64,000 nucleotides of DNA, taken from assembly GCF_009807095.1 (NCBI RefSeq), contig NZ_WUCC01000005.1:1-64000 (forward strand). Direction: 5' to 3'. Shown one piece after another: positions 8,111-46,044 of the stretch. How positions within the stretch are numbered: position 1 is the stretch's first letter; every line of letters begins with the position of its first letter. The stretch comes from Rathayibacter sp. VKM Ac-2754. Lineage in GTDB: Bacteria > Actinomycetota > Actinomycetes > Actinomycetales > Microbacteriaceae. A program made the position numbers and the translations under genes. Below the pieces are notes generated by a model that saw only the letters and a list, made by a program, of their open reading frames with translations, was not told where the DNA came from and did no database searches.

Positions 8111-8236
8111 GTTGATCGAGTAGCCCGCGAAGCGGGCGTATCGAGATCCACCAGCGTCGGACGGGCGGATCTGAGGAACGGTCTGCTGAAGCTGGTGGGT
8201 CTCGATACGCCCCTGCGGGGCTACTCGACCAGCAGG
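8111..8236. repeat. Family A palindromic repeat, copy 1
   Basis: Left arm TTGATCGAGTAGCCCGC... and right arm ...GGGCTACTCGACCAGC are inverted copies of each other, separated by a spacer. Each arm contains its own small hairpin: CCCGC/GCGGG on the left and CCCC/GGGG on the right. This copy is unusual in lying between divergent genes (HtrA and VOC). Confidence 0.85.
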
Positions 8237-8278
8237 CGGGGGAGGGGATCGATCGATCAGCAGGAGTCGGCAGGAAAT

Positions 8279-8310
8279 AGTTGTGGCTACAACTGAGTTG
8301 GGTCTAGCGT
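8279..8310 (+). promoter_or_regulatory. MarR-like operator and promoter of the VOC gene
   Basis: AGTTGT and ACAACT form a palindrome with centre GGCT (8279-8294). TTGTGG within it can act as -35. TAGCGT at 8305-8310 is the -10, 7 bases before ATG 8318. The symmetry and the TAGTTGT..ACAACT core resemble MarR/OhrR-class operators. No MarR gene is in the window. Confidence 0.6.
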
Positions 8311-8317
8311 GAACGAG

Positions 8318-9190
8318 ATGACCGCCACCGCACCCGACCTGCTCGCGCCCGACACCACGATGGGCGCGGTCACCCTCCGCGTCGCCGACCTCGACGGGAT
8401 GATCGCCTACTACCGCGACGCCGTCACCCTCGACCTGCTCTCGCACGACGGACCGGTCGCGGTGCTCGGTCGCGGCGGTGTCGCCTCCGTGATCCTGCAG
8501 CACGCACCGGAGCTCCGGCACGCCGGGCCGCGCAGCGCGGGGCTGTTCCACACGGCGATCCTCTTCGAGTCGGAGGCGGCGCTCGCCGCAGCGGTCTACA
8601 GCGTCGCGACCCGGCACCCCGGCTCGTTCACCGGCAGCTCCGACCACCTCGTGAGCAAGGCCTTCTACTTCGACGACCCGGAGCACAACGGCGTCGAGCT
8701 GTACTGGGACCGCGACCGCACGCAGTGGTCGTGGACCCACGGCCGGATCGAGATGTCGACGCTGTTCCTCGACCCGAACGAGTTCCTCCGGGAGCACCTG
8801 ATGGACGAGACGATCGTGCAGCCGCGGCTGGGCGGCGCCTCCGTCGGGCACGTGCACCTGAGCGTGGGCGACGTCGCGACCGCGAAGGAGTTCTACGTCG
8901 ACCGGCTCGGCTTCGAGACGACGATCGCCCACGGCGGGCAGGCGCTCTTCGTGTCGGCGGGCGGCTACCACCACCACATGGCCATGAACACCTGGAACTC
9001 GCTCGGCGCCGGTCGACGCCAGCTCGCGCTCGGCCTCGGGCAGGTGGAGATCGTGGTGCCGGGGGCCGACGATCTCGGCGCCCTCGGCGAGCGACTCCGT
9101 CACGCGCGGGTCGCGACGCAGGACGACGGGCGGACGCTGGCGTTCGAGGACCCGTGGTCGAACGCGATCCGGGTGACGCCGGCGAGCTGA
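8318..9190 (+). CDS. Two-domain VOC-family dioxygenase (CatE-like)
   Basis: A 290-residue vicinal-oxygen-chelate protein made of two tandem betaalphabetabetabeta modules. The first begins at GAVTLRVADLDGMIAYYRDAV and the second at GHVHLSVGDVATAKEFYVDRLGF. Metal-ligand positions are visible as His in LFHTAI, Glu in NGVELYWDR and His in GHVHLSV. Family members annotated as catechol-2,3-dioxygenase or CatE/MhqO open or detoxify quinone and catechol compounds; the exact substrate is not shown. ATG 8318 fits a leaderless mRNA from the -10 at 8305. GTG 8309, used by a longer frame, lies inside that -10. The MarR-like operator is consistent with induction by quinones. Confidence 0.85.
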   Translation: MTATAPDLLAPDTTMGAVTLRVADLDGMIAYYRDAVTLDLLSHDGPVAVLGRGGVASVILQHAPELRHAGPRSAGLFHTAILFESEAALAAAVYSVATRHPGSFTGSSDHLVSKAFYFDDPEHNGVELYWDRDRTQWSWTHGRIEMSTLFLDPNEFLREHLMDETIVQPRLGGASVGHVHLSVGDVATAKEFYVDRLGFETTIAHGGQALFVSAGGYHHHMAMNTWNSLGAGRRQLALGLGQVEIVVPGADDLGALGERLRHARVATQDDGRTLAFEDPWSNAIRVTPAS

Positions 9191-9224
9191 GGCGCGCGCC
9201 CGCTCCGCGGGATTCCGCGGCGGG

Positions 9225-9268
9225 TACGATGGGGGCGCGGAATTCGCACTCCCCCGAGACTCCGGAGT
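9225..9268 (+). promoter_or_regulatory. purS-purQ promoter and ribosome binding site
   Basis: TACGAT at 9225-9230 is a good -10 hexamer, with no stronger candidate between the VOC stop and purS. CGGAG near 9263 is placed correctly for the GTG start at 9274. Confidence 0.45.
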
Positions 9269-9273
9269 ACACG

Positions 9274-9525
9274 GTGCCCACGATCGTCGTTGAAGTCATG
9301 CCCAAGGCCGAGCTGCTCGATCCGCAGGGGAAGGCCGTCGCCGGAGCGCTCTCGCGGCTCGGGCACTCGGCGGTGACGGGCGTGCGCGTGGGCAAGCGCT
9401 TCGAGATCACGGTCGACGAGGTCACCGACGAGGTGCGCGCGACGGTCGAGGCGATCGCCGACGACATGCTGTCGAACTCGGTCATCGAGGACGTCGTCGG
9501 CATCCACTACCCGGCGGCCGTCTGA
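9274..9525 (+). CDS. purS: Phosphoribosylformylglycinamidine synthase subunit PurS
   Basis: An 83-residue protein beginning [22 protein letters not shown], the conserved PurS fold. It bridges PurQ and PurL in the three-subunit FGAM synthase that makes the fourth intermediate of purine synthesis. The start is GTG at 9274, with CGGAG upstream. The stop overlaps the purQ start (TGATG), so the two genes are translationally coupled. Length and motifs match the family. Confidence 0.96.
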
Positions 9526-10223
9526 TGCGCATCGGCGTCATCACGTTCCCGGGCTCGCTCGACGACCGCGACGCCCAGCGCGCGGTCCGCTTCGCGGGGG
9601 CCGAGGCCGTCGCCCTCTGGCACGGCGACCACGACCTCGACGGGGTCGACGCGATCGTGCTGCCCGGCGGCTTCTCGTACGGCGACTACCTGCGCTGCGG
9701 AGCCATCGCCTCCCACTCCCCGATCATGCGCGAGGTCATCGACGCGGCGAACGCCGGGATGCCGGTGCTCGGCATCTGCAACGGCTTCCAGATGCTGACC
9801 GAGGCGCACCTGCTGCCCGGCGGCCTGATCCGCAACGACGTCGGCTCGTTCGTCTGCCGCGACCAGCGCCTCCGCGTCGAGAACGCGTCGACGGTGTGGA
9901 CCGGCGAGTTCGAGGCCGGCCAGGAGATCACGATCCCGCTGAAGAACGGCGAGGGCGGCTACATCGCGTCGGCCGAGACGATCGCCGAGCTCGAGGGCGA
10001 GGGTCGCGTGGTGTTCCGCTACCTCGGCAAGAACCCCAACGGCTCGATGAACGACATCGCCGGGATCAGCAGCGCCCGCGGCAACGTCGTCGGCCTGATG
10101 CCGCACCCCGAGCACGCGGTCGAGGCGGGCTTCGGCCCCGACACTCCCGCCGCGATGCGCTCGGGCGTGGACGGCCTGGCGTTCTTCACGTCGGCCGTGA
10201 ACGCGCTGCTGCAGACGGCGTAG
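9525..10223 (+). CDS. purQ: FGAM synthase glutaminase subunit PurQ
   Basis: A 232-residue class I glutamine amidotransferase that supplies ammonia from glutamine to PurL. The nucleophile is Cys85 in GICNGFQ. His194 and Glu196 in MPHPEHA complete the triad. The [15 protein letters not shown] segment near the N terminus is typical of PurQ. Its ATG shares a base with the purS stop. The matching purL gene is not adjacent but lies 14 kb downstream. A family A repeat follows the gene. Confidence 0.97.
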
Positions 10224-10255
10224 ACGCGGTTGGGGCGCATCACCGTCGCCGGCCC

Positions 10256-10380
10256 GCTGGTCGAGTAGCCGCCGCAGGCGGCGTATCGAGACCCACCACG
10301 TCAGAACGGGTGCCTGCACACCTCGGCTTCTGACGCTGATGGATCGCGATACGCCCGCTGCGCGGGCTACTCGATCAGCA
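10256..10380. repeat. Family A palindromic repeat, copy 2
   Basis: Inverted arms GCTGGTCGAGTAGCC... and ...GGCTACTCGATCAGC. The left hairpin is CCGCC/GGCGG and the right is CCCGC/GCGGG, so the stem sequence differs from copy 1 while pairing is kept. It lies between the convergent purQ and GH65 genes. Confidence 0.85.
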
Positions 10381-10420
10381 GGCGGACGGACGCGCCTCCA
10401 GGTCGAACCGCGGTCGAGGC

Positions 10421-12925
10421 CTACGGGCCCGTCATCACCTCGGGCTCCGCGGCCATCGTGATCGTGGGGATCGAGGCGGTGATCACGGTGCCGTCGGAGC
10501 GGCGGGTGCCCTCGATGTCGGACGTGGTCGGCGCGCCGATCAGGCGCGGGCCCTGGTGGCCGAGTCCGACGCGGACCGGGTTGCCGGCCTCGACGTGCAC
10601 GCGCTCGTCGCGGACGGTGATCGAGGCGGCGTCGCCGGTCTCGACGGTCAGGAGCACCGACTCCTGCGTCACCTCGACCCGTACGCGGGTGCCGTGCAGC
10701 GTGATGCGGAAGGTCAGGCGGTCCCAGTCGTCGGGGAGGCGCGGGTCGAGCGTGATGCGCCCGCCGTGGTCGCGCATCCCGCCGAAGCCGTAGACCAGCG
10801 CGCTCCACACGCCGCCGGTCGACGCGACGTGGATGCCGTCGGCCGTGTTGCGGTGGAGGTCGGCGAGGTCGACGAACAGCGCCGACAGGAAGTAGTGCCG
10901 CGACAGCTCGTTGTAGCCGACCTCGGCCGCGATGATCGACTGCACGACCGCCGAGAGGGTCGAGTCGCCCGTGGTCAGCGCGTCGTAGTACTCGAAGTCG
11001 GCGCGCTTCTGCTCGGCGGTGAACTCGTTGCCCTGCAGCAGCAGCGCGAGCACGACGTCGGCCTGCTTGAGCACCTGGAAGCGGTAGATCACCAGCGGGT
11101 GGAAGTGCAGCAGCAGCGGGCGCTTGCTCGCGGGCGTGTTCTCGAGGTCCCAGAGCTCCTTCTCGAGGAACGCGGCGTCCTGCGGGTGGATGCCGGCCCG
11201 GTCGTCGAAGGGGATGTGCATCTTGTCGGCCGCGCGGGCCCACTCGATGACCTCGTCCTCGACGACGTGGAGGCGCGCGACCATCCGCTCGTAGGCGGCC
11301 GGCTCGACCGCCTTCAGCAGCTCGACGGCGCGCGCCGCGGCACGGAGGTTCGAGCGGGCCATCACGTTCGTGTAGAGGTTGTCGTTGACGACGGTCGTGT
11401 ACTCGTCGGGGCCGGTCACCCCGTGGATGTGGAAGTGGTCGTCGCCGTTGCTGCGCCAGAAGCCCAGGTCGGCCCACATCCGCGCGGTCTCGACGAGGAT
11501 GTCGATCGCTCCGCGGGCGAGGAAGTCGTCGTCGCCGGTCGCCGCCACGTACTGCATCAGCGCATACGAGATGTCGGCGTCGATGTGGTACTGCGCGGTC
11601 CCGGCGGCGTAGTACGCCGACGACTCCTGACCGTTGATCGTGCGCCAGGGGAACAGCGCGCCGCGCTGGTTGAGCTCGGCCGCGCGGGAGCGGGCGGAGT
11701 CGAGCATGTTCTGCCGGAAGCGCAGCGCGTTCCGAGCGACGAGCGGCGCGGTGTAGCTGAGGAACGGGAGGACGTAGACCTCGGTGTCCCAGAAGTAGTG
11801 CCCGCCGTATCCGGAGCCCGAGACGCCCTTCGCCGCGACGCCGCCGCCGTCGGTCCGCGCGGTCGACTGCGCGAGCTGGAAGAGGTTCCAGCGGGTGGCC
11901 TGCTGGATCGCGGGCTGGCCGTCGATCTGCACGTCGGAGCGCTGCCAGAAGTCGTCGAGCCACTCGCGCTGCTTCGCGAACTGCTCCTCCACCGGCGTCT
12001 CGCGGGCGCGGTCGAGGGTGCGGTCGCAGCGGTCGGCGAGCTCGCGCACGGGCACGCCGCGGGAGGTGTGATAGGTCAGCGTCTTGACGAGCCGGACCGG
12101 CACTCCAGCCTTCGCCTTGACGCGGTAGACGTGCTTGGCGAGGTCGTCGTCGATCTGGGAGGTCTGGTCCCACTCGTTCTCGGTCTCGAGCACGTGCTCG
12201 GCACCGCAGGCGATGGTCATCCCGGAGTTGGTGGTGCGGTAGCCGAGCAGGTAGCGGGTGCCGTTGACCCGCTTGAGGCGCGGCTGGAGCACGCGCTCCT
12301 CGAAGGACTCGGCCTTGCGCGGGTCGAAGCCGGCGCCCTCGCTGCCGGAGGGCGCGTGGTACTCGTCGATGCCGTCCTGGCGGTTGAGGATCTGGCTCGA
12401 GATGAGGACGGACGCGTCGTCGTCGATCATCTCGACCTCGTAGTCGAGGATCGCGAGGTGCCGGTCGGTGAACGACACGAGGCGGCGCGCGCGGATGAGC
12501 ACCCGCTTGCCCGACGGAGTCCGCCACTCGATCTCGCGGGTGAGGACGCCGTTCGCGAAGTCGAGGCGGCGCGTGTAGGCGAGGACGTCGGCCTCGCTCA
12601 GCACGAACGGCTCGTCGTCGACGTAGAGGCGGAGGATCTTGGCGTCGGGGACGTTCACGATGGTCTGGCCGACGCGGGCGAAGCCGAACGCCTCCTCGGC
12701 GTGCCGGATGGGCCAGGTCTCGTGGAACCCGTTGATGAAGGTGCCGTAGGCGTAGCCGTCGCGACCCTCCTCGACATTGCCGCGGAGGCCGAGGTAGCCG
12801 TTGCCGGTGGCGAAGAGCGTCTCGGTGCGGCCTTGGAGCTCGGTCGCGAACTCGGTCTCGACGAGGGCCCACTCGTCGACCGGGAAGCGGTTGCGGTCGA
12901 GCGGGTCGGAGGTGATGGGGTTCAT
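10421..12925 (-). CDS. GH65 disaccharide phosphorylase (trehalose/maltose/kojibiose type)
   Basis: An 834-residue glycoside hydrolase family 65 protein. It has the N-terminal beta-sandwich (LFATGNGYLGLRGN), the (alpha/alpha)6 barrel with the proposed general acid Glu508 in GVTGPDEYTTVVND, and the C-terminal beta-sheet domains. Inverting GH65 enzymes split an alpha-linked disaccharide with phosphate to give beta-glucose 1-phosphate. The product fits the coupled neighbour, a beta-phosphoglucomutase, whose stop overlaps this ATG (ATGA). The same pairing is known in mycobacteria (Rv3400-Rv3401). Which disaccharide is used cannot be told from the sequence. No signal peptide is seen, so it is cytoplasmic. 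Confidence 0.93.
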   Translation of the reverse strand: MNPITSDPLDRNRFPVDEWALVETEFATELQGRTETLFATGNGYLGLRGNVEEGRDGYAYGTFINGFHETWPIRHAEEAFGFARVGQTIVNVPDAKILRLYVDDEPFVLSEADVLAYTRRLDFANGVLTREIEWRTPSGKRVLIRARRLVSFTDRHLAILDYEVEMIDDDASVLISSQILNRQDGIDEYHAPSGSEGAGFDPRKAESFEERVLQPRLKRVNGTRYLLGYRTTNSGMTIACGAEHVLETENEWDQTSQIDDDLAKHVYRVKAKAGVPVRLVKTLTYHTSRGVPVRELADRCDRTLDRARETPVEEQFAKQREWLDDFWQRSDVQIDGQPAIQQATRWNLFQLAQSTARTDGGGVAAKGVSGSGYGGHYFWDTEVYVLPFLSYTAPLVARNALRFRQNMLDSARSRAAELNQRGALFPWRTINGQESSAYYAAGTAQYHIDADISYALMQYVAATGDDDFLARGAIDILVETARMWADLGFWRSNGDDHFHIHGVTGPDEYTTVVNDNLYTNVMARSNLRAAARAVELLKAVEPAAYERMVARLHVVEDEVIEWARAADKMHIPFDDRAGIHPQDAAFLEKELWDLENTPASKRPLLLHFHPLVIYRFQVLKQADVVLALLLQGNEFTAEQKRADFEYYDALTTGDSTLSAVVQSIIAAEVGYNELSRHYFLSALFVDLADLHRNTADGIHVASTGGVWSALVYGFGGMRDHGGRITLDPRLPDDWDRLTFRITLHGTRVRVEVTQESVLLTVETGDAASITVRDERVHVEAGNPVRVGLGHQGPRLIGAPTTSDIEGTRRSDGTVITASIPTITMAAEPEVMTGP

Positions 12926-13701
12926 GCGGCGTCCTCGGGGGCGGGGGCAGAGGGGAGGAAGGGGAGCAGCTCGGCGAGGTCGTCGACGACGATGTCGGCG
13001 CCGTGGGCGAGCAGGGTCTCGCGACCGACGCCGCGGTCGACTCCGACGACGAGGCCGAAGGCGCCCGCGCGGCCTGCGGCGACTCCGGAGTGGGCGTCCT
13101 CGACGACGACGCACTCGGCGGCGGTGAGCCCGAGGAGCTCGGCGGCGTAGAGGTAGGTGTCGGGGGCGGGCTTGCCCGCGATCCCCCGGTCGGCGGCGAG
13201 CAGGCCGTCGACGACCACCTCGAAGCGGTCGCGGAGGCCGGCGGCCTCGAGCACGGGCACGCCGTTGCGGGAGGAGGTGACCACGGCCACCTCGACGCCC
13301 GCGGCGATCGCGGCGTCGAGGAACGCGAGCGAGCCGGGGTACGGGGAGACGCCCTCCTCGTCGAGCGTGGCGTTGAACGCCGCGTTCTTGCGGTTGCCGA
13401 GACCGCAGACCGTCTCGAGTGCGGGGTCGTCGCTGGGCGAGCCCTCGGGCAGGGTGATCCCTCGGGAGGCGAGCAGCGCGCGGACGCCGTCGTAGCGCGG
13501 ACGCCCGTCGATGTACTGGAAGTAGTCGGCGTCGCTGTAGCCGCGCTCGATGCCCTTCGACTCGAGGTACGGCGTGAACAGGCGCGCCCAAGCGTGCATG
13601 TGCACATCGGCGGTCGGGGTGAGAACGCCGTCGAGATCGAACAGGAGCGCCTTCAACCCGCGCAGGGCGGAGGCGTCGGGGCGCGGCGGGGAAGCAGTCA
13701 C
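12922..13701 (-). CDS. pgmB: HAD-superfamily beta-phosphoglucomutase
   Basis: A 259-residue HAD phosphatase-like mutase. Motif I is FDLDGVLT with nucleophile Asp22 and acid/base Asp24. Motif II is VTSSRNG, motif III is GKPAPDTY and motif IV is VVEDAHSG. Beta-phosphoglucomutase converts beta-glucose 1-phosphate to glucose 6-phosphate, which takes the GH65 product into glycolysis. The ATGA overlap with the downstream GH65 gene indicates coupling. A TACGAT -10 on the minus strand lies at 13778-13783. The FDLDGVLTPTADVHMHAW start is typical of the mycobacterial-type enzymes. Confidence 0.93.
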   Translation of the reverse strand: MTASPPRPDASALRGLKALLFDLDGVLTPTADVHMHAWARLFTPYLESKGIERGYSDADYFQYIDGRPRYDGVRALLASRGITLPEGSPSDDPALETVCGLGNRKNAAFNATLDEEGVSPYPGSLAFLDAAIAAGVEVAVVTSSRNGVPVLEAAGLRDRFEVVVDGLLAADRGIAGKPAPDTYLYAAELLGLTAAECVVVEDAHSGVAAGRAGAFGLVVGVDRGVGRETLLAHGADIVVDDLAELLPFLPSAPAPEDAA

Positions 13702-13885
13702 GGCGGGGAGGCTCTCGGATCGGGGCTCGATGCGGCGGGATCCGCCGGTGACGGCCGTCCGCCGAGGACTGGAAGGTATCGTATCGGCCCCGCGGGCGCC
13801 TCCTGGAACCGTTTACACGTCTGACATCTGCGCGCCGTCGAGGGCGGCATCGCGCGCCATGGGCGGCGACGGAGCCGCAGCGGCG

Positions 13886-14770: not shown

Positions 14771-15588
<818 letters not shown>

Positions 15589-15592
<4 letters not shown>

Positions 15593-19441: not shown

Positions 19442-19448
19442 GCGGCCG

Positions 19449-30885: not shown

Positions 30886-31018
30886 GCTGATCGAGCCCGC
30901 AGCCCGCGCAGCGGGCGTATCGAGATCCACGTCCGTCAGAAGGCCGGGTCGGAAGGCCTCTCTGCTGACGGACGCGGGTCTCGATACGCCGCCTCCGGCG
31001 GCTGCGGGCTCGACCAGC
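30886..31018. repeat. Family A palindromic repeat, copy 3
   Basis: Arms GCTGATCGAGCCCGCAGCC... and ...GGCTGCGGGCTCGACCAGC. Both arms replace the usual AGTAG with AGCCCGCAG or its complement, a matched change on both sides. The inner hairpins are CCCGC/GCGGG and CCGCC/GGCGG. It lies between the two aldo/keto reductase genes. Confidence 0.85.
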
Positions 31019-31060
31019 GAGCCTGTCCCCCACTCCTCCCCCACACGAAGGACCACACCC

Positions 31061-31918
31061 ATGAAGCAGCGCACCCTCGGCGACCTCCAGGTCGGCGCCA
31101 TCGGACTCGGCGGCATGCCCCTCTCGATCGAGGGCCGCCCCGACCGCGAGCGCGGGATCGCCACGATCCACGCCGCCCTCGACTCCGGCGTCACCCTGAT
31201 CGACACGGCCGACGCCTACCACCAGCCCGTCGAGGGCGACCTCGGCCACAACGAGCTCCTCATCGCGGAGGCGCTGCGCAGCTACGGCGGCGACACCTCC
31301 GCCGTGCTCGTGGCGACGAAGGGCGGGCACCTCCGTCCCCCGGGCGAGAACTGGACCCAGGACGGCCGCCCCGAGCACCTGAAGGAGGCGGCACGCGCCT
31401 CCGCCCAGCGCCTCGGCGTCGAGGCGATCGGCCTCTACCAGTACCACCGGCCGGACTCGCGGGTGCCCTACGCCGACTCGATCGGCGCGCTCGCCGAGCT
31501 GCTCGACGAGGGTGTCATCGTGCGGGCCGGCATCTCGAACGCCGACCCCGACCAGATCCGCGAGGCGCACGGGATCCTCGGCTCTCGGCTCGTGTCGGTG
31601 CAGAACCAGTTCTCGCCGTCGTTCCGCTCGAGCGAGCCGGAGCTCGAGCTGTGCGCCGAGCTGGGGCTCGCGTTCCTGCCGTGGAGCCCGCTCGGAGGCA
31701 TCGGCGGAGCCGCCGAGGTCGGCACGCGCAACGCCGCGTTCGGCACCGTCGCCGAGGCCCACGGAGTCTCGCCCCAGGTCGTCTGCCTCGCCTGGGAGCT
31801 GGCGAAGGCTCCCGTCGTACTGCCGATCCCCGGCGCGTCCCGGCCCGAGAGCATCCGCGACTCGGCGACCGCGGCCGAGCTGACGCTCACCGCGGAGGAG
31901 CTGGCCTCGCTCGGCTGA
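31061..31918 (+). CDS. Aldo/keto reductase, second paralog
   Basis: A 285-residue aldo/keto reductase, shorter than the first. It has MKQRTLGDLQVGAIGLGGMPLS at the N terminus, catalytic Asp in LIDTADAYH, Lys in LVATKGGH and His in YQYHRPD. The C terminus ends LPIPGASRPESIRDSATAAELTLTAEELASL, the usual NADPH-binding end. AAGGA lies ahead of ATG 31061. The substrate is unknown. The start of the gene lies 43 bases after a family A repeat. Confidence 0.92.
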   Translation: MKQRTLGDLQVGAIGLGGMPLSIEGRPDRERGIATIHAALDSGVTLIDTADAYHQPVEGDLGHNELLIAEALRSYGGDTSAVLVATKGGHLRPPGENWTQDGRPEHLKEAARASAQRLGVEAIGLYQYHRPDSRVPYADSIGALAELLDEGVIVRAGISNADPDQIREAHGILGSRLVSVQNQFSPSFRSSEPELELCAELGLAFLPWSPLGGIGGAAEVGTRNAAFGTVAEAHGVSPQVVCLAWELAKAPVVLPIPGASRPESIRDSATAAELTLTAEELASLG

Positions 31919-31970
31919 GGTCGCCACCCATGCTGATCGAGCGACTCGCGGGGCGGGCGGATCTTCTCCC

Positions 31971-32097
31971 GCTGATCGAGCCCGCAGCCCGCGCAGCGGG
32001 CGCATCGAGATCCACGTCCTTCAGAACGCCGGGGCAGAAGCCTGATCTGCTGACGCTCGTGGGTCTCGGTACGCCCCTGCGGGGCTACTCGACCAGC
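31971..32097. repeat. Family A palindromic repeat, copy 4
   Basis: Arms GCTGATCGAGCCCGCAGCCC... and ...GGGGCTACTCGACCAGC. The left arm has the copy-3 type insertion and the right arm has the copy-1 type, so it is a mosaic of two subtypes. It lies between convergent aldo/keto reductase and LysR genes. A loose fragment (CGGCTCGACCAGCAGGGG) follows near 32160. Confidence 0.8.
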
Positions 32098-36666: not shown

Positions 36667-36667
36667 C

Positions 36668-38935
36668 ATGGCTCTGCTCTCCCTCGAACGCCCGCGCGGC
36701 GTCAAGAAGGTGTCCTGGCTGACCCTTCTCGGCATCGTCCTGGTGCCCCTCGCGATCGGCGGCCTGCTCGTCTGGGCGCTGTGGAACCCGACCGACCGCC
36801 TCGACCAGATCACGGCCGCGGTCGTGAACGAGGACACCCCCGTCGAGATCAACGGCCAGACCGTGCCGCTCGGCCGCCAGCTCGCGGCAGGGCTCGTGAC
36901 GGGAGGCACCGAGAGCACCGCCACGGCGTCGCCGACCCCGGTGCCCAACGTCTCGGGCTCCGACTCGTCGGGCAACTTCACCTGGGTCCTCACCGACAAG
37001 GACGACGCCGCGCAGGGGCTCGCCGACGGCACGTACGCGACCGTCGTCACGATCCCCTCCGAGTTCTCCGCCGCCGCCACCTCCTACTCCGGAGACGCGG
37101 CCGAGGCCACCAAGGCGACCATCGACATCGCGACGAGCGACAAGGCCAAGCTCGTCGACGACGCCATCTCGGCGACGGTGACCAGCACGGCCACGTCGCT
37201 GCTCAACACGCAGCTGACCACCGCCTACCTCGAGAACGTCTACGTCGGCTTCAACACGCTGAACGAGCAGATCGGCCAGGCGGCCGACGGCGCCGGCACC
37301 CTCGCCGACGGCGCCGACGAGCTGGGCACGGGCGCCTCCTCGCTCGCCGACGGCACCTCGTCGCTCGCAACGGGCATCGACGACCTCGCGACCGGCGCCT
37401 CCGCGCTCTCGGACGGAGTCGCGCAGGTCGGCACGGGCGCCTCGTCGCTCGCCGACGGAGTCGCCCAGGTCGGCACCGGCGCGTCCTCGCTCGCCGACGG
37501 AGTCGCGCAGCTCGGCACCGGCGCCTCCGACCTCTCGGGCGGCGTCTCGCAGCTCGCGACCGGCACGCAGCAGTCGGCCGACGGGGCGACCGGCCTCGCC
37601 GACGGGCTCGACGGGCTCGCAGCGGGAGTCGCGGCGCTCGGGCAGACCGCGTCCACCGCCTCCGGAGTCGCCGCCCAGTCGGCGACCACCACCGGCACCT
37701 CGCTCGGCACGATCGCCGCGCTGGCGGAATCGTGCGCGGCGACCGACCCGGTCTGCGCGGCGATCCTCGCCGAGGCCGGCACCCAGCTCGACACCACCAA
37801 CCAGAACGGCGCGCTCTACCAGGCGGGCGCGACGGCGCAGTACACGGCGGGGATCGCATCGGGCATCAACGACGGCACCGACGGGCAGCCCTCGCTCGTC
37901 GCGGGCACCCAGCAGTCGGCCGCCGGCGCGCGCAGCCTGGCCGGCGGGCTCTCGCAGCTCGCCACCGGAGCCGCCACCGCCGCTCAGGGTGCCGCCGCGC
38001 TGTCGACCGGCGCCGCGTCGGCCTCCGATGGAGCCGCGCAGCTGGCGACAGGAGCCGCCTCGGCCTCGACCGGAGCCGCCCAGCTCGCGACCGGAGCCGC
38101 CTCCGCGGCCGACGGAGCCGCGCAGCTCGCCACGGGAGCCGCCTCCGCCGCCGACGGAGCCGACCAGCTGGCCGACGGAGCGACCGGCGTCTCGGACGGC
38201 GCCGTGCAGCTCGCCGACGGCACCCGCACTCTCGCCACCGGCCTCGACGCGGCCGTGGCGCAGCTGCCGACCTACACCGACGCGGAGTCGACGAACCTCG
38301 CCGACGTCGTCGCCGATCCGGTCGAGAACGCGAGCTCGTCGACCACCCTGTTCGGAGCCTCGAGCGTGCCGTTCTTCACGACGATCGCACTGTGGCTCGG
38401 AGCGCTCGCCAGCTTCCTCGTGCTCGCCGCGTTCTCGCACCGCGCGCTCTCGTCGACCCGCTCGTCCGCGGCGCTCGCCCTCTCCTCCTACGTGCCGGCG
38501 CTCGTGATCGGCCTCGTGCAGGGACTGGCGGTGGCGATCGTCATGCAGTTCGTCGCCGACCTCGAGCCGTGGACGTTCGTCGGCTTCACCCTGCTGTCGA
38601 TGCTCGTCGGCGCCTCGTTCGCCGCCGTCAACCAGGGCCTGGTCGCCCTGCTCGGAGGCACGGGCCGCTTCATCGCGATGCTCGCGGCGGTCATCGGGCT
38701 CGGCGCCGGCATCATCTCGACGGTGCCGGGCGTGTTCGACGACGCCCTCGGGTTCCTGCCGCTGTCGGCCGCGCAGACCGCGCTGTCGGGCGTGGTCGAG
38801 GGCTCGGGAGGTGTCGGCGGCTCGGTCGTCGGCCTCGTGATCTGGCTGCTCTTCGGCCTGCTGCTGACCGTCGCCGCGATCGCCCGCCGCCGCGTCGTGT
38901 CGGTCCGCGCCCTCCGCCGCCCCGCGGAGGCGTAG
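36668..38935 (+). CDS. YhgE/Pip family membrane protein with periodic repeats
   Basis: A 755-residue protein. An N-terminal helix (about 18-40) is followed by an outer domain (VVNEDTPVEINGQTVPLG, typical of YhgE/Pip), a very long Ala/Gly/Ser/Asp repeat region (about 205-530) and five C-terminal helices of ABC-2 type. The repeat is a 14-residue unit such as VAQVGTGASSLADG and AAQLATGAASAADG, coded by near-identical 42-nt blocks around 37420-37540 and 37990-38210. It probably forms a long extracellular rod or coiled helix. Family members act in type VII-related or lipid export contexts; the role is unknown. It is co-transcribed with the MMPL fusion, so a joint envelope export system is likely. 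Confidence 0.9.
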   Translation: MALLSLERPRGVKKVSWLTLLGIVLVPLAIGGLLVWALWNPTDRLDQITAAVVNEDTPVEINGQTVPLGRQLAAGLVTGGTESTATASPTPVPNVSGSDSSGNFTWVLTDKDDAAQGLADGTYATVVTIPSEFSAAATSYSGDAAEATKATIDIATSDKAKLVDDAISATVTSTATSLLNTQLTTAYLENVYVGFNTLNEQIGQAADGAGTLADGADELGTGASSLADGTSSLATGIDDLATGASALSDGVAQVGTGASSLADGVAQVGTGASSLADGVAQLGTGASDLSGGVSQLATGTQQSADGATGLADGLDGLAAGVAALGQTASTASGVAAQSATTTGTSLGTIAALAESCAATDPVCAAILAEAGTQLDTTNQNGALYQAGATAQYTAGIASGINDGTDGQPSLVAGTQQSAAGARSLAGGLSQLATGAATAAQGAAALSTGAASASDGAAQLATGAASASTGAAQLATGAASAADGAAQLATGAASAADGADQLADGATGVSDGAVQLADGTRTLATGLDAAVAQLPTYTDAESTNLADVVADPVENASSSTTLFGASSVPFFTTIALWLGALASFLVLAAFSHRALSSTRSSAALALSSYVPALVIGLVQGLAVAIVMQFVADLEPWTFVGFTLLSMLVGASFAAVNQGLVALLGGTGRFIAMLAAVIGLGAGIISTVPGVFDDALGFLPLSAAQTALSGVVEGSGGVGGSVVGLVIWLLFGLLLTVAAIARRRVVSVRALRRPAEA

Positions 38936-38948
38936 GCCCGGCGAGCAT

Positions 38949-39678
38949 GCTGGTCGAGTAGCCCCGCAGGGGCGTATCGAGACCCACCATCGTCAGCAGA
39001 TCGGTCCTCAGATCCGGCCTTCTGACGGACGTCGATCTCGATACGCCAGCTGCGCGGGCTACTCGATCAGCAAGGGGCGCAGCGCGGAGTAGCGGTCCGT
39101 GACGCGGGATGGAACAGCGCTCCGCGAAGTCGACGCCCGTCGCCATGCATGCTGGTCGAGTAGCCCCGCAGGGGCGTATCGAGGCCCACCAGCGTCAGCA
39201 GATCGGTCCTCAGATCCGGGCTTCTGACGGACGTGGATCTCGATACGCCCGCTGCGCGGGCTACTCGATCAGCAAGGGGGCGCAGCGCGGAGAAGGGGTC
39301 CGTGACGCGGGATGGAACAGCGCTCCGCGAAGTCGACGCCCGTCGCCATGCATGCTGGTCGAGTAGCCCCGCAGGGGCGTATCGAGGCCCACCAGCGTCA
39401 GCAGATCGGTCCTCAGATCCGGCCTTCTGAAGGACGTCGTCTCGATACGCCCGCTGCGCGGGCTACTCGATCAGCAAGGGGGCGCAGCGCGGAGAAGGGG
39501 TCCGTGACGCGGGATGGAACAGCGCTCCGCGAAGTCGACGCCCGTCGCCATGCATGCTGGTCGAGTAGCCCCGCAGGGGCGTATCGAGACCCACCAGCGT
39601 CAGCAGACCGGTCCTCAGATCCGGCCTTCTGACGGACGTGGATCTCGATACGCCCGCTGCGCGGGCTACTCGATCAGC
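38949..39678. repeat. Tandem array of 202-nt units containing family A repeats (copies 5-8)
   Basis: Four family A elements begin at 38949, 39151, 39354 and 39556, spaced 202, 203 and 202 bases. Between them lies a conserved 78-80-nt linker with GGGATGGAACAGCGCTCCG and CCCGTCGCCATGCATGCTGG. The linkers are nearly identical, so the array arose by recent duplication of element plus linker. Small open frames inside it are artefacts of the repeats. It lies between the convergent YhgE and chorismate mutase genes, and the interval contains no other gene. Confidence 0.9.
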
Positions 39679-39707
39679 AAGGGGGCGCAGCGCGGCCGCG
39701 GAGCAGG

Positions 39708-40028: not shown

Positions 40029-40050
40029 GCTCTCGACCCTAACCGACGAC

Positions 40051-40084
40051 GAAGGCCCCCTCCCGGAAGCGAGAGGGGGCCTTC
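40051..40084 (-). terminator. Terminator of the ohr gene
   Basis: A 12-bp perfect stem GAAGGCCCCCTC / GAGGGGGCCTTC encloses a 10-base loop, 12 bases after the ohr stop. It is followed on the minus strand by TCGTCGTC. Confidence 0.75.
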
Positions 40085-40096
40085 GTGAGAGTCGCG

Positions 40097-40513
40097 TCAG
40101 TCGACGATGCTGAGCGTGACCGGGACGTTGCCGCGCGTGGCGTTCGAGTACGGGCACAGCGTGTGCGCCTTCTCGGCGACCTTGTGGGCGTCCTCGGGAC
40201 TCGCCTTGGGCACGTAGATGTCGAGCTCGACCGCGAGGCCGAAGCCCTCGTCGTTCTTGCCGATCGAGACGCTCGCCGAGACAGCCGCATCGGTGGTGTC
40301 GATCTTCAGCTCGCGGCCGGCGCCGTGCAGGGCGCTGAGGAAGCAGGCCGAGAACCCGGCGGCGAAGAGCTGCTCGGGGTTGGTCCCGTCTCCGGAGCCT
40401 CCGAGCTCCTTCGGCGGGCGGGTGTCGAGGTCGAGGCGGTCGTCCTCGGTGCGGACGTGGCCGTCGCGTCCTCCACCGGAGGCGTGGGCGATAGCGGTGT
40501 AGATGGCATCCAT
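40097..40513 (-). CDS. ohr: Ohr organic hydroperoxide resistance protein
   Basis: A 138-residue OsmC/Ohr-family thiol peroxidase that reduces organic and lipid hydroperoxides. The redox cysteines are Cys57 (FSACFLSAL) and Cys120 (TLCPYSNATRGN), both with Ohr-specific contexts. NPEQLFAAGF is also diagnostic. It acts as a cytoplasmic homodimer. The start is ATG 40513. An OhrR gene is not adjacent. Confidence 0.95.
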   Translation of the reverse strand: MDAIYTAIAHASGGGRDGHVRTEDDRLDLDTRPPKELGGSGDGTNPEQLFAAGFSACFLSALHGAGRELKIDTTDAAVSASVSIGKNDEGFGLAVELDIYVPKASPEDAHKVAEKAHTLCPYSNATRGNVPVTLSIVD

Positions 40514-40691
40514 GCCCCCATCCCACCACTGATCACCCGAGTGCGAGGTGAACGCCCGGTGCACGCCGCATCGGAGCCGAGCATCCGCTGCGAGACCCGC
40601 GCCGACAGCCGTCAACCCCCTGCCTCCTCCGGCGCGCGGGGTGTGGCGTGGAGGGGAACGTCCGGCGTCGGCCGGACAGAACGGAGCAGCA

Positions 40692-41867: not shown

Positions 41868-41877
41868 GGCTCCCCTC

Positions 41878-42001
41878 GCTGGTCGAGTAGCCCGCGGAGC
41901 GGGCGTATCGAGACCCACCTCCGTCCGGAGAGGAGATCTGCACTCCCTCCCTTCTGACGCTGGTGGGTCTCGATACGCCCCTGCGGGGCTACTCGACCAG
42001 C
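41878..42001. repeat. Family A palindromic repeat, copy 9
   Basis: Arms GCTGGTCGAGTAGCCCGC... and ...GGGGCTACTCGACCAGC with inner hairpins CCCGC/GCGGG and CCCC/GGGG. It lies between convergent genes. A truncated right-arm remnant follows at 42018-42043. Confidence 0.85.
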
Positions 42002-42064
42002 ACGGGGCGTCGCCCCTGTGGGCCTGCGGGCTCGATCAGCACGGGCGTTGATGCTCCGGGAACG

Positions 42065-42100
42065 ACGAAGGCGGCGCCCCCGTGGGGACGCCGCCTTCGT
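42065..42100 (-). terminator. Terminator of the CsbD gene
   Basis: A 12-bp perfect stem ACGAAGGCGGCG / CGCCGCCTTCGT encloses a 12-base loop. It ends 10 bases after the CsbD stop on the minus strand. Confidence 0.75.
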
Positions 42101-42110
42101 GTGGTGAGAC

Positions 42111-42281
42111 CTACTTGAAGACGTCCTTGACGTCCTCGCCGACCTTCTTGGTCGACGCTGCGGCCTGGTCCTTCTGGCCTTCGGCCTTCAGGCTGTCGTC
42201 GTTCTTGTGCTCGCCCAGTGCTTCCTTCGCCTTGCCGGCGATGTCCTGAGCAGCGTTCTTGATCTTGTCATCGAGCCCCAT
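42111..42281 (-). CDS. CsbD-family stress protein
   Basis: A 56-residue acidic and hydrophilic protein beginning MGLDDKIKNAAQDIAGKAKEALGE and ending KKVGEDVKDVFK, the CsbD pattern. CsbD proteins are induced by general stress in many bacteria; the molecular role is unknown. A good AGGAGG lies 7 bases before ATG 42281. It is flanked by its own terminator and a 133-base gap. It lies close to a three-gene stress-like operon at 42.85 kb. Confidence 0.9.
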   Translation of the reverse strand: MGLDDKIKNAAQDIAGKAKEALGEHKNDDSLKAEGQKDQAAASTKKVGEDVKDVFK

Positions 42282-42414
42282 TGCGGTGCCTCCTTCGTGA
42301 TCGGTCGTGCGTGGTACGTGATGACCCGACCGTAGGAGTGGAGGCTGCCTGTCCCCTGTGCGCGGGGAGGGGCTTGCCCGGGCACCACTCGAGTGCCACG
42401 ATTCACCCCCGCGA

Positions 42415-42645
42415 TCAGGTCGCGGGCGTAGCCGTCTCGGAGGGGACCGTCTGCGACGGCTCGTTGGTCGGCGTCTGGCTCGACCCGTCGTCGGCGCTCG
42501 TCGGTACCACGATGCCCGACTGCACCGGAGTCTGCGCGTCGCCCGTGCAGCCCGCTAGCAGTCCGACCAGCAGGGCGGAGGCGCCGAGCGCTCCCAGAAC
42601 GCGGCCGACGGTTCGAGCGGGCGGATCGAGCCGGAGGGAAGTCAT
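42415..42645 (-). CDS. Small Ser/Thr-rich lipoprotein
   Basis: A 76-residue lipoprotein. A signal peptide with lipobox LLAGC (Cys near 33) precedes a short tail of Thr/Pro/Ser/Gln. There is no folded domain, so it may act as a spacer or be a remnant. ATG 42645 is 7 bases after a TAGCGT -10 on the minus strand (42653-42658), suggesting a leaderless mRNA. Function unknown. Confidence 0.7.
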   Translation of the reverse strand: MTSLRLDPPARTVGRVLGALGASALLVGLLAGCTGDAQTPVQSGIVVPTSADDGSSQTPTNEPSQTVPSETATPAT

Positions 42646-42852
42646 ACGGGCGACGCTAGGCGGGCCTTCCGCGCGACAGCAGGGGCTTGACTTCTCCTCC
42701 CCCCGCCCGCGGACGCCCCGCATCGGAGGGGCGCGCGATGGTAGCCCCGTCCGGGGCCCGAGCGCTACCGCCTGTCCCTGCTGGCGGGCGCCTCGCAGAC
42801 TGGCGACGCCGGCACGCATCCATCCCCCACTCGATCCTGGAAGGGAACGACG

Positions 42853-43632
42853 ATGTCTACCATCGATCCCGCTACACCTCCGTTCGGAGACGGCGCCGCG
42901 AACTTCGCCGCGACCGACACGACCTTCGACGAGACCACCACCGCGACGTCCCACTCCACGGGCTCCGGCGCGTCCGGCAAGGTCGACGCCGCCAAGGAGC
43001 AGGTCGGTGCCGCCAAGGACCAGGCCGCCTCGGTCGCCGGCGACGCCAAGCAGGCCGCGGGCGACGTCCTCGCCACCGGCAAGGAGGAGGCGGCCAACGT
43101 CGCCCAGGAGGCCAAGACCCAGGTCAAGGACCTCCTCGACCAGAGCCGCGGCCAGCTCACCGAGCAGGCCCACGCCCAGAAGGAGAACGCCGCCAAGGGC
43201 GCCCGCGCCTTCAGCGACGACCTGACCTCGCTCGCGAACGGCGAGGGCGGCCAGGACAACATGGCCGCGAACCTCGTCTCGAACCTCGCCGGCCGCGCCC
43301 AGGGCGTCGCCACCTGGCTCGAGGACCGCGAGCCGGCCGAGCTGCTGGAGGACGTGAAGTCGTTCGCCCGCCGCCGCCCGGGAGCGTTCATCCTGCTCGC
43401 CGCCGCGACCGGCCTCGTCGCCGGCCGCCTGGTCCGCGCCCTCACCGCCGAGGCCAAGGATGAGAAGGAGGCCGCGACCGACACGTCCGGCCCCGAGTTC
43501 GCCGCTCCGGCCGCCTCGACCTACGGCACGTCGAGCACCGATCACCTCCCCACCGAGCCGATCGCCGACCCGCTGAGCGTGCCGACGACCTCGGCCGGCT
43601 ACGACTCCTTCCCGACGGGACTCCGACCGTGA
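42853..43632 (+). CDS. Ala/Lys-rich amphipathic stress-like membrane protein
   Basis: A 259-residue protein. Residues about 45-120 are a long, charged, LEA-like helix (KVDAAKEQVGAAKDQAASVAGDAKQAAG...). One transmembrane helix at about 175-195 (FILLAAATGLVAGRLV) lies after RRRPG, which sets the orientation. The C-terminal tail is Ser/Thr/Pro-rich. I do not recognise a named family, but the helical style matches stress proteins of the LEA/DUF883 kind. GGAAGGGA precedes the ATG. It is coupled by GTGA to the next gene, forming a three-gene operon. Confidence 0.75.
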   Translation: MSTIDPATPPFGDGAANFAATDTTFDETTTATSHSTGSGASGKVDAAKEQVGAAKDQAASVAGDAKQAAGDVLATGKEEAANVAQEAKTQVKDLLDQSRGQLTEQAHAQKENAAKGARAFSDDLTSLANGEGGQDNMAANLVSNLAGRAQGVATWLEDREPAELLEDVKSFARRRPGAFILLAAATGLVAGRLVRALTAEAKDEKEAATDTSGPEFAAPAASTYGTSSTDHLPTEPIADPLSVPTTSAGYDSFPTGLRP

Positions 43633-44072
43633 CCGACTCCTCCGGAGCGCATCGCGCCGGACTGGGCGAGCCGACCCCCGACCAGCGCGCGGGCAGCACG
43701 TCGCTCGGCGACCTGCTCGGCGAGGTCTCGCGCGACCTCTCGACCCTGATCCGCCAGGAGATGGCGCTCGCCAAGGCCGAGCTCAAGGAGTCCGCCGGCA
43801 AGGCGGGCAAGGGCGCAGGCCTCCTGGGCGGCGCCGGCTACGCGGCGATCATGGCCGTGCTGTTCCTCTCGATCGCCCTCTGGTGGGCGCTCGGCACTCT
43901 GATCGGCAACGGCTGGTCCGGAGTCGTCGTCGCCGTGATCTGGGGCATCGTCGCCGCGATCCTGTACTCCGTCGGGCGCAAGAGCCTGAAGACCGTCGAG
44001 GGCGCACCCGAGACGGTCGACTCCCTCAAGAAGATTCCCGAAACCCTCAAGCCGAACGGGGCAGGACGATGA
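43629..44072 (+). CDS. Holin-X/phage-holin-superfamily membrane protein
   Basis: A 147-residue protein with a leading LGEVSRDLSTLIRQEMALAKAELKES segment, then two helices (about 65-87 and 92-112). This is the actinobacterial Holin-X/DUF1469 pattern, seen in envelope-stress contexts and not only in phage. GTG 43629 overlaps the stop of the previous gene (GTGA) and its own stop overlaps the next ATG. No phage genes lie nearby, so a cellular role is more likely than lysis. Confidence 0.85.
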   Translation: MTDSSGAHRAGLGEPTPDQRAGSTSLGDLLGEVSRDLSTLIRQEMALAKAELKESAGKAGKGAGLLGGAGYAAIMAVLFLSIALWWALGTLIGNGWSGVVVAVIWGIVAAILYSVGRKSLKTVEGAPETVDSLKKIPETLKPNGAGR

Positions 44073-44671
44073 CGTACGACTCTGCAAGCACTGACTACTC
44101 GAACAAGACGCCGGAGGAGATCCGGGCCGAGATCGAGCGCACCCGCCTCGAGCTCGGCGGCGACGTCGACGCCCTCGCCGAGAAGGTCAGCCCCAGCGCC
44201 ATCGCGCAGCGGCAGACCGACAAGGTGAAGTCGGCCGTCGGCTCCGTCCGCGACCGCGTGATGGGCGCCGCGCACGACGCGGGCGACTCCGTCTCCGGAG
44301 GCGCGGACTCCGTCAAGGGCGCCGCCGGCTCGGTCAAGGGCAAGGCCGAGGGCAACCCGCTCGCGGTCGGCCTGATCGCGCTCGGCGCCGGCATGCTCGT
44401 GGCGTCGCTGATCCCGGCCTCCAGCGCCGAGAAGCAGGCCGCCTCGAAGGTCAAGGAGACGGCCCAGCCGGTCGTCGACAAGGTCACCGAGGCCGCGAAG
44501 GACGCCGCCGGCGAGCTCCGCGAGCCCGCCCAGCAGGCCTTCGCCTCGGTGAAGGAGACCGCGACCGACGCCGCGCAGAACGTCAAGGAGGCGGGGACCT
44601 CCGCCACCGACGACGTCAAGGACTCGGCCCGCGAGGCCAAGCACGCGGTGCAGGAGAACGGCCAGGCTTAG
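44069..44671 (+). CDS. DUF3618 family protein
   Basis: A 200-residue protein. The N-terminal signature KTPEEIRAEIERTRLELGGDVDALAEKVSPSAIAQR is DUF3618. One transmembrane helix (about 103-120, LAVGLIALGAGMLVASLI) divides two long Ala/Lys/Glu amphipathic helices. Proteins of this family often sit with Holin-X-like genes in actinobacteria. The gene is last in its operon, with start/stop overlap (ATGA), and is followed by a terminator. Confidence 0.88.
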   Translation: MTYDSASTDYSNKTPEEIRAEIERTRLELGGDVDALAEKVSPSAIAQRQTDKVKSAVGSVRDRVMGAAHDAGDSVSGGADSVKGAAGSVKGKAEGNPLAVGLIALGAGMLVASLIPASSAEKQAASKVKETAQPVVDKVTEAAKDAAGELREPAQQAFASVKETATDAAQNVKEAGTSATDDVKDSAREAKHAVQENGQA

Positions 44672-44687
44672 AGCCTGCACGACTCCC

Positions 44688-44719
44688 AGGGGCGCTCGAT
44701 CTGCGGATCGGGCGCCCCT
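44688..44719 (+). terminator. Terminator of the three-gene operon
   Basis: AGGGGCGC and GCGCCCCT form the outer stem, and TCGATC/GATCG pairs inside, around the loop TGCG. T-rich bases (TTCGTCGTCT) follow. Confidence 0.7.
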
Positions 44720-44765
44720 TCGTCGTCTCGGGAATACCTCCGAGCCCGCGGCTCTTGTCGCAAGC

Positions 44766-45785
44766 ATGAGATCCATCGTCTACTCCCGCACCGGCGCCTC
44801 CTCCGTCCTCTCGCTCGTCGACCGCGGACCCGCCGCCCCCGGCGCCGGGGAGGTCCGGGTGCGCGTGGTCGCCTCCGGAGTGAACCCGACCGACTGGAAG
44901 GCCCGTGCGACGGGCGATCTCGCCTTCGACGAGGTCGTGCCGAATCAGGACGGCGCAGGAGTCGTCGACGCGGTCGGCGACGGAGTCGAGGGTCTGGCCC
45001 TCGGCGATCGCGTCTGGGTGCACCTGGCCGCCCACCGCCGCCCGACCGGCACGGCGCAGGAGTGGACCGTCCTCCCCGCGAACCGCGTCGTCCGCCTGCC
45101 CGACGGCATCGGCTTCGATCTCGGCGCGAGCCTCGGCGTCCCGGCGATGACGGCGCACCGCGCGCTGACCGTGCACGCGCACGGGCCCGCGCGGCTGTCT
45201 CCCGGTGCGCTCGCCGGTCGCACGGTCCTCGTGCAGGGCGGGGCCGGAGCGGTCGGCCACGCGGCGATCCAGCTCGCGGTCTGGGCCGGGGCGACGGTGA
45301 TCGCCACCGTGAGCAGCGACGGCAAGGCCGCGCTCGCCACGGCGGCCGGCGCGCACCACGTGCTGCAGTATCCCGACGAGGCGCTCGCGGCGCGGATCCT
45401 CGAGATCGCCCCCGACGGAGTCGACCAGATCGTCGAGGTCGCGCCCGCCCAGAACGCCGACCTCGACGTCGAGGTGCTCGCCAACCACGGCAGCATCGGC
45501 TACTACGCGAACAACAACGGAGACGAGTTCTCGGTGCCGATCGTCGCGAGCTTCGCGAAGAACGCGCGCTGGCAGGGACTCCTGCTCTACACCGTCGGCG
45601 ACGAGCCCCTGGCGGCCGCCGCCGAGGACATCACCGCCGCGCTCGAGGACGGCGCTCTGCCCGTCGGCGAGGCCGCAGGCCTGCCGATCACGTGGTTCCC
45701 CCTCGAGGAGACGGCCGCCGCCCACGACGCGGTCGAGCACGGTGTGACCGGCAAGGTGCTCATCCGCGTCTCCGACGAGGCCTGA
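44766..45785 (+). CDS. Zinc-free MDR-family NADPH:quinone reductase-like enzyme
   Basis: A 339-residue medium-chain reductase. It has the NPTDWKAR segment of quinone reductase relatives, the Rossmann motif VLVQGGAGAVGHAAIQLAVWAG and no zinc-binding cysteine cluster. It likely reduces quinones or conjugated carbonyls with NADPH. The start is ATG 44766. Downstream lie one half and one full family A repeat. Confidence 0.9.
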   Translation: MRSIVYSRTGASSVLSLVDRGPAAPGAGEVRVRVVASGVNPTDWKARATGDLAFDEVVPNQDGAGVVDAVGDGVEGLALGDRVWVHLAAHRRPTGTAQEWTVLPANRVVRLPDGIGFDLGASLGVPAMTAHRALTVHAHGPARLSPGALAGRTVLVQGGAGAVGHAAIQLAVWAGATVIATVSSDGKAALATAAGAHHVLQYPDEALAARILEIAPDGVDQIVEVAPAQNADLDVEVLANHGSIGYYANNNGDEFSVPIVASFAKNARWQGLLLYTVGDEPLAAAAEDITAALEDGALPVGEAAGLPITWFPLEETAAAHDAVEHGVTGKVLIRVSDEA

Positions 45786-45822
45786 CGGCCGCGGCAGCGC
45801 GGGCACGCGCCCGCCCGTCCCA

Positions 45823-46044
45823 GCTGATCGAGTAGCCCGCGCAGCGGGCGTATCGAGATCCACGTCCGTCAGAAGGCCGGGGCAGGGAACTGCTCCACTG
45901 AAGCGCGTCGCCCCGTTCCTCGCTGATCGAGTAGCCCGCACCGCGGGCGTATCGAGATCCATGTCCGTCAGAAGGCGAGGGCAGAAGCCTCCACTGCTGA
46001 CGCTGGTGGGTCTCGATACGCCCCTGCGGGGCTACTCGACCAGC
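45823..46044. repeat. Family A repeats, one half copy and one full copy (10, 11)
   Basis: 45823-45880 has only a left arm (GCTGATCGAGTAGCCCGC...) and the inner GTCAGAAGGCC. A full element follows at 45922-46044, with left hairpin CCCGC-ACC-GCGGG and right hairpin CCCC-TGC-GGGG. Both lie between convergent genes. The half copy suggests deletion by recombination between arms. Confidence 0.8.

Follow-up and report, generated by a model that had tools for sequence, protein, structure and literature searches.

The window analysed here is a stretch of 64,000 nucleotides (nt) of Rathayibacter sp. VKM Ac-2754 (contig NZ_WUCC01000005.1, positions 1 to 64,000), which carries a family of short elements resembling REPINs, the hairpin-forming doublets of repetitive extragenic palindromic (REP) sequences. 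An earlier note on this DNA had described eleven copies, two of them in doubt as half or mosaic, and a count of eleven with one half copy was borne out: the window holds 21 arms of two types, called A-arm and G-arm, which make up ten two-armed elements and one solo arm. In ten of the eleven copies the arms are inverted with their tags outward, an arrangement found in 207 elements of the loci that we fetched. The copies are as follows.

Element 1, 8111..8233, minus strand: A-arm at 8111-8149 (+) and G-arm at 8197-8233 (-).
Element 2, 10256..10379, plus strand: G-arm with the stem CCGCC-GCA-GGCGG, plus an A-arm.
Element 3, 30886..31018, minus strand: a CCCGCAG variant replaces TAG in both arms.
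Element 4, 31971..32097, minus strand: A-arm with the CCCGCAG variant; G-arm normal.
Element 5, 38949..39071, plus strand: copy 1 of 4 in a tandem array (period about 202 nt).
Element 6, 39151..39273, plus strand: copy 2 of the tandem array.
Element 7, 39354..39475, plus strand: copy 3 of the tandem array.
Element 8, 39556..39678, plus strand: copy 4 of the tandem array and our reference short element.
Element 9, 41878..42001, plus strand: G-arms at both ends, a rarer type (12 of 207 elements).
Solo A-arm, 45823..45861, plus strand: half copy.
Element 10, 45922..46044, minus strand: A-arm at 45922-45960 (+) and G-arm at 46008-46044 (-).

The tandem array thus accounts for four of the ten elements. 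Element 2 lies between convergent open reading frames (ORFs), directly past the 3' end of the one at 9525-10223 and ahead of the 3' end of the one at 10421-13591. The tag beside the short hairpin is GTAG in 18 of the 21 arms and GCAG in the remaining three. The string GCTGGTCGAGTAGC with up to two mismatches was matched 20 times in the window, compared to a mean of 0.92 and a maximum of 4 in 100 shuffles; two of the 20 matches, at 15088 and 32159, lie outside any full arm. All three alternative stems that had been named, CCCC-GCA-GGGG, CCCGC-GCA-GCGGG and CCGCC-GCA-GGCGG, were found in window arms. The two arms of element 3 had moreover been said to change together, and AGCCCGCAG is indeed present in both arms of 30886-31018; this is, however, an exception, as the variant occurs in both arms of 1 and in one arm of 5 of the 207 two-armed elements, and in one arm only of element 4 (31971-32097). 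The CCCGCAG variant of the tag region was seen at 30886-32013 of the window and in five further elements outside it.

The elements are not confined to the window. In the high-GC genome of the strain (3.97 Mb in 24 contigs), the arm tag GCTGRTCGAGTAGC with at most one mismatch was matched 440 times, compared to 61 times for the reversed control, and confinement to the window, which the earlier note had named as a point against its own reading, can be dismissed. Our first arm model, R1, was matched by all 150 scored candidates, drawn from 13,636 first-look candidates. In 400 kb of the genome, 16 of 17 strict arm clusters were intergenic; a looser arm pattern, for which 14 of the 33 clusters fell within ORFs, was discarded as yielding chance matches. 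No match to the elements was found in Rfam at gathering scores, and plasmids and phages gave no copies at an E value of 0.01.

The arm reads GCTG-R9-T-C11-G-A-G-T-A-G-stem-C-G-T-A-T-C-G-A-G39-A-Y41-CC (R, purine; Y, pyrimidine; N, any base). In its refined form, it consists of an outer GGTC/GACC helix, a tandem G·A step (CGAG/CGAG), which we take to be the sheared G·A motif, two conserved bulges, the GTAG tag and a freely covarying stem closed by a GNA triloop. Our first fold, model R1 with TCGA/TCGA and a bulge, was replaced once the covariation of C11 with G39 had been seen. On set A2 the old and the new fold score alike overall (0.252 and 0.269, respectively), and it is C11-G39 and T15-A34 that decide between them. 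The loop is GNA in 576 of 645 triloops within the genus and in 32 of 33 outside; GNA loops are described as very stable in DNA hairpins in the part of a publication available to us (PMC6479982, citing Yoshizawa et al. 1997). In 13 of the 645 Rathayibacter triloops TNC stands in place of GNA, as though the hairpin tip had been turned around.

Within the window alone, the covariation score was 0.133 against a shuffled mean of 0.054, with none of 500 shuffles as high, and partners slid out of register gave 0.000-0.053. Neither the number of pairs in which both partners change (3, a value reached by 81 of 500 shuffles) nor that of further pair types (3; 345 of 500) exceeded chance in the window, and the strong case for covariation is that made by the arms outside it. 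R9 and Y41 pair in 649 of 684 Rathayibacter arms (GC in 364, AT in 285), with GT in 5, AC in 6 and other letters in the rest. C11-G39 covaries in other genera (CG in 33, TA in 5; n = 38). Among 131 distinct arms from outside the genus, 97.0% of cells pair, compared to 82.9% after shuffling, and the covariation score is 0.297 compared to 0.095 (0 of 500 shuffles as high; slid partners 0.010-0.052). In the same set T15-A34 becomes GC in 6 arms and CG in 4, G12, A13, G37 and A38 are each kept in at least 130 arms, and the bulged bases G32 and T35 are kept in 130 and 127 arms, respectively; the model used to choose these arms belongs to the same family, so that the set is biased toward conserved ones. 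The claim that the paired stem changes mark a selected fold therefore stands, as the score lies above that of the shuffles and the pattern recurs in other genera; stem pairing no better than chance, which would have spoken against it, was not what we found. We conclude that it is the folded single arm that is under selection, probably as DNA: since GT and AC are equally rare at R9-Y41, the data argue against an RNA of one strand and remain compatible with RNA from both strands.

The two arms of an element might also pair with each other. For the reference element at 39556-39678, the lowest energy (-53.3 kcal/mol) was calculated for a single long hairpin spanning both arms, yet this fold is contradicted by the combination of a G-arm at one end with an A-arm at the other in 194 of 207 two-armed elements. 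In the long hairpin, G·T and C·A mispairs would result from such a combination, while pairing within each arm is perfect. The fold energy of the A-arm alone was not better than that of 15 of 200 shuffles. On the sequences compared, pairing within the arm is the better fit. The lengths of the elements fall into two classes, near 123 and 93 nt, and their ends reach to a C at -3 (197 of 206) and a G at +3 (200 of 206), giving C-A/T-T-GCTG...CAGC-A-T/A-G. No target-site duplication was found at the 207 elements, where direct repeats beyond the C/G ends showed no clear excess (3 nt in 7 elements, shuffled mean 2.96 and maximum 8; 4 nt in 1; none of 5 nt or longer).

With the exact arm pattern, all named genomes among the matches listed (80 of 98 stretches) were Rathayibacter. 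In the genus, 12 of 15 genomes carry arms at E <= 1e-4, eight of them at least about 150, followed by G306 with 134, G263 with 48, G305 with 12 and G171 with 5; G221, G304 and G307 have none at this cut-off. In the family Microbacteriaceae, strict filters with 21 candidates scored per genome gave arms in 96 of 299 genomes, from 42 of 85 genera, and laxer filters made 17 of 18 low-count family genomes positive. Six of 396 genomes of the phylum matched, three of them outside the family; convincing arms are present in G521 and G602, which belong to two other families of the class, and the lone weak match in G504 resembles coding sequence and was not counted. In G521, regular arrays of alternating long-stemmed arms were observed (L269 724-1894, L264, L274 and L284).

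The sites occupied differ between close relatives. A stretch of the window with 17 arms has an armless counterpart in G263, a genome which is about 90% identical and has 48 arms in total, and other members of the genus have differing sets of occupied sites. An empty site with an exact join was not obtained from the relatives, which at 90-95% identity are too diverged and often have other palindromes at the position. These palindromes, with inverted ends of 16-19 nt, are unrelated to the elements; they were seen at L222 5210-5276 and 11969-12052, L221 12026-12109 and L225 13450-13560, and are of the CAGAACATCAGCTGAG, CAAGTAAGGCTGGA and CAGAACGTCGGCCAGGAGT types. Elements have been gained and lost between species, presumably by insertion, and the family is likely mobile.

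We considered whether the hairpins might instead serve the host, as RNA hairpins at 3' ends, terminators or in chromosome organisation, and not be mobile DNA. The placement of the strict arm clusters in the 400 kb of the own genome would suit such a role, with 15 of 17 in tandem or convergent gaps and only 1 of the 16 intergenic ones in a divergent gap, compared to 31% of intergenic bases, and so would the unrelated palindromes that occupy the same intergenic sites in relatives. Yet the wobble expected of a single transcribed strand is absent (GT 5 vs AC 6 at R9-Y41), site occupancy varies between species, and the precise ends that the elements have in common (of 206, 197 with C at -3 and 200 with G at +3) resemble those of mobile units, so that we consider a pure host function improbable.

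REPINs are mobilised by REP-associated tyrosine transposases (RAYTs), and the earlier note had proposed the same for these elements, expecting a RAYT gene flanked by the same arm. The Pfam model of the Y1 transposases, PF01797, had no match in the own genome at either E <= 0.001 or E <= 10, and no RAYT gene flanked by the arm was detected there. Nothing above the cut-off was found in the 15 genomes of the genus, where E <= 10 yields one match of 13.5 bits (G171; cut-off 23), and none of 14 additional genomes that carry arms or are close kin, G521 and G602 included, had a match. In the family, 3 of 299 genomes match PF01797, none of them among the 96 arm-positive ones. As a positive control, the same search was applied to 14 control genomes, and 5 of them gave matches at E <= 0.001. 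Mobilisation by a RAYT is therefore unsupported, and RAYT/Y1 was rejected as mobiliser on account of this non-detection in own, genus and arm-positive family genomes. The REP/REPIN-like anatomy claimed for the elements holds, with a GTAG tag, hairpin arms, inverted tail-to-tail pairs and hundreds of mostly intergenic copies genome-wide, but the system fails one tested defining feature, the RAYT gene.

An ancestral RAYT could have been lost, leaving orphan REPINs whose copies are kept alike by recombination and local tandem duplication without transposition. REPs that lost their transposase gene are known from the parts of two publications at hand (PMC6006769, PMC3733652), and the tandem array with its 202-nt period in the window shows local duplication. 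We nevertheless regard this explanation as unlikely: many 44-nt arms scattered over the own genome have an identical score (73.7 bits) and species of about 90% identity differ in which sites are occupied, both of which fit recent spread, and the Y1 gene occurs in only 3 of 299 family genomes while arms reach other families of the class, so that the loss of the RAYT would be old.

A candidate partner gene emerged from a survey of 115 arm-to-arm intervals in the fetched loci, in which 66 distinct ORFs each occupy over 55% of their interval. One paralogous group was found, seven ORFs of 434-441 amino acids and 70-91% identity from Rathayibacter VKM Ac-2856 and Ac-2857, which an eighth member in L180 joined by BLAST. 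According to Pfam, all seven contain HNH (one slightly below the cut-off) and four DUF222 at E <= 0.001; a protein search labels the group as HNH endonuclease or DUF222 domain-containing protein. In this one clade, the DUF222-HNH genes lie in units of about 1.5 kb that end in the same arms. The left outer unit end is 151-154 nt ahead of the ATG in 5 of 8 units and the right one 47 nt past the stop in 4 of 8. Across the unit ends, identity drops from 0.72-0.83 to 0.53-0.66 and from 0.87-1.0 to 0.50-0.63; homology stops at the arms in most, not all, of the 8 units (the incomplete unit L098 was excluded from this comparison). The short element agrees at 49 of 52 positions with the right unit end of L097 and L149, a segment that takes in the last codon and the stop (TTCTGACGG).

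As these loci had originally been fetched for their arms, the bias was tested by this unit-end homology and by an arm-blind scan of 1.36 Mb of G045, a sequence chosen regardless of arms or DUF222. When arms up to 170 nt upstream and up to 80 nt downstream are counted, 5 of 9 DUF222 genes are flanked on both sides compared to 6 of 940 other called genes (p = 9e-9), in a sample that overlaps some genes of the paralogous group since G045 is VKM Ac-2857; when both arms are required to face the gene, the counts are 1 of 9 and 1 of 940. In the family, a DUF222 match is present in 82 of 96 arm-positive genomes compared to 102 of 203 others (odds ratio 5.8, p = 2e-9, ignoring kinship and genome size). 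DUF222-HNH is thus strongly tied to the arms in this one clade, and a fold model weakly suggests a ParB/Noc-like palindrome binder joined to an HNH nuclease.

Our preferred but tentative reading, in which we have rather less than even confidence, is that of a genome-wide REPIN-like family, likely mobile and moved as a folded DNA hairpin by the DUF222-HNH endonuclease instead of a RAYT. The protein would bind the palindromic arms through its ParB/Noc-like N-terminal part, and its HNH part would nick an arm when this is extruded or single-stranded. Repair of the nick by copying to another site could then move either the full unit, arms plus gene, or a gene-less short element, the short 93/123-nt elements being putative gene-less derivatives that use the enzyme in trans.

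The tie between gene and arms has its limits. Of three DUF222 genes in 400 kb of contig C18 of the own genome, one has an arm 67 nt downstream, on one side only, and two have no arm within 3 kb. In the best 30 DUF222 loci from other genomes, a strong arm (62.9 bits) lies upstream of the gene in L337, and L334 and L329 have weak ones. In other genera, 3 of 140 arm-adjacent ORFs are DUF222 (L073, L075 and L300), a mild excess at best, with a chance of 0.009-0.10 if a background of 0.3-0.8% is assumed. Finally, 14 of the 96 arm-positive family genomes, those of genus g13 among them, gave no DUF222 match with 7 candidates scored per genome, by which some may be missed. Around the DUF222 genes of other genomes, 1 of 28 genes listed has an inverted repeat exceeding the largest control. 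At L300 1475-1548, a DUF222-HNH ORF takes its stop codon from the TAG in the GAGTAG of an arm.

Under the passenger explanation, another enzyme moves the elements, and DUF222-HNH is a homing-endonuclease-like passenger gene that entered two-armed elements within a single Rathayibacter clade and passes from copy to copy by cutting gene-less ones. Arms in 14 family genomes without a DUF222 match and DUF222 genes away from arms in many genomes speak for it, as does the presence of the stop-codon context TTCTGACGG, with at most one mismatch, in 69 of 121 elements of the 123-nt class, as insertion of the gene into an element would predict. Frequent gene conversion is also described for related REP13E12 loci in another actinobacterium, as stated in the accessible part of PMC13061034. 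Yet no other gene family was seen to recur beside the arms. A common master gene beside the arms was not found in 79 loci of other genera, none of the Pfam families among 140 neighbours there is recurrent (the commonest reach 3 members, DUF222 included; 25 of 151 families listed), ten neighbours from four low-copy genomes and G086 contained no recurrent gene, and the Y1 transposase was not found in arm-positive family genomes. We give the passenger role a rather low probability, which nevertheless makes it almost as likely as HNH-driven movement by DUF222-HNH.

Apart from the elements, the window contains in-frame repeats of 21/42 nt at 37277-38248, within an ORF at 36668-38935 that has a weak ABC2_membrane_3 match.

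The elements resemble the GTAG REPs, REPINs and bacterial interspersed mosaic elements (BIMEs) with their RAYT (TnpA_REP, REPtron) in having GTAG directly before a short hairpin, outward-tagged inverted pairs, tandem arrays, intergenic sites, hundreds of arms per genome, a bulged stem and no clear target duplication. Stem bulges are required for the activity of E. coli REPs, according to the part of PMC8266576 at hand. Unlike in those systems, no Y1/HuH transposase was detected for the Rathayibacter elements, GTAG lies inside a longer arm with the outer GGTC/GACC helix and the CGAG/CGAG tandem G·A step, and a DUF222-HNH gene occupies the place of the RAYT in one clade. In the available portion of PMC3733652, GTAG repeats are reported from Proteobacteria, Cyanobacteria, Chloroflexi and the PVC group, and Actinobacteria are not named there. 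The CGTC-tagged REPs are likewise palindromic and, in the same portion, lack a dedicated transposase (PMC3733652); here the tag is GTAG and there is a candidate partner gene. A multi-copy DUF222 plus HNH protein is shared with the REP13E12/DUF222-HNH repeats of actinobacteria, which the excerpts at hand class as repetitive (REP13E12/HNH endonuclease/DUF222; PMC10589994) and as gene-conversion hotspots without defined function (PMC13061034). These excerpts, with which the comparison was made rather than with a mycobacterial locus, mention neither hairpin arms nor gene-less derivatives, whereas the Rathayibacter units terminate in covarying GTAG hairpins that recur in hundreds of short elements. 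Miniature inverted-repeat transposable elements (MITEs) of DDE insertion sequences are also short, non-coding and multi-copy with inverted ends, but our elements differ from them by the absence of a target-site duplication, by covarying hairpin arms and by the absence of a DDE transposase among the arm-neighbour families listed (25 of 151). We found no published description of these elements among the papers listed, six arm strings having given no repeat paper as judged by title and the start of the abstract.

It is possible, if somewhat improbable, that the actinobacterial DUF222-HNH proteins are a new class of mobiliser, palindrome-binding HNH nickases that move hairpin-ended units and, in trans, hundreds of gene-less REPIN-like elements. 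An HNH nuclease might then do what RAYTs do with a HuH tyrosine transposase, which we would put forward with equal reserve. Populations of REPINs are believed to rely on a domesticated HuH transposase, and a large, seemingly active REPIN-like population without one, in a family nearly free of it, makes that dependence testable. If DUF222-HNH were indeed the mover, a widespread actinobacterial family of unknown role would gain a function and the 13E12/DUF222 repeats a first mechanism, and HNH-driven spread of hairpin elements would be a mechanism to seek elsewhere. Should DUF222-HNH prove to be a mere passenger, the arm is still a precisely conserved DNA hairpin, with its tandem G·A, two fixed bulges and GNA loop, awaiting its reader.

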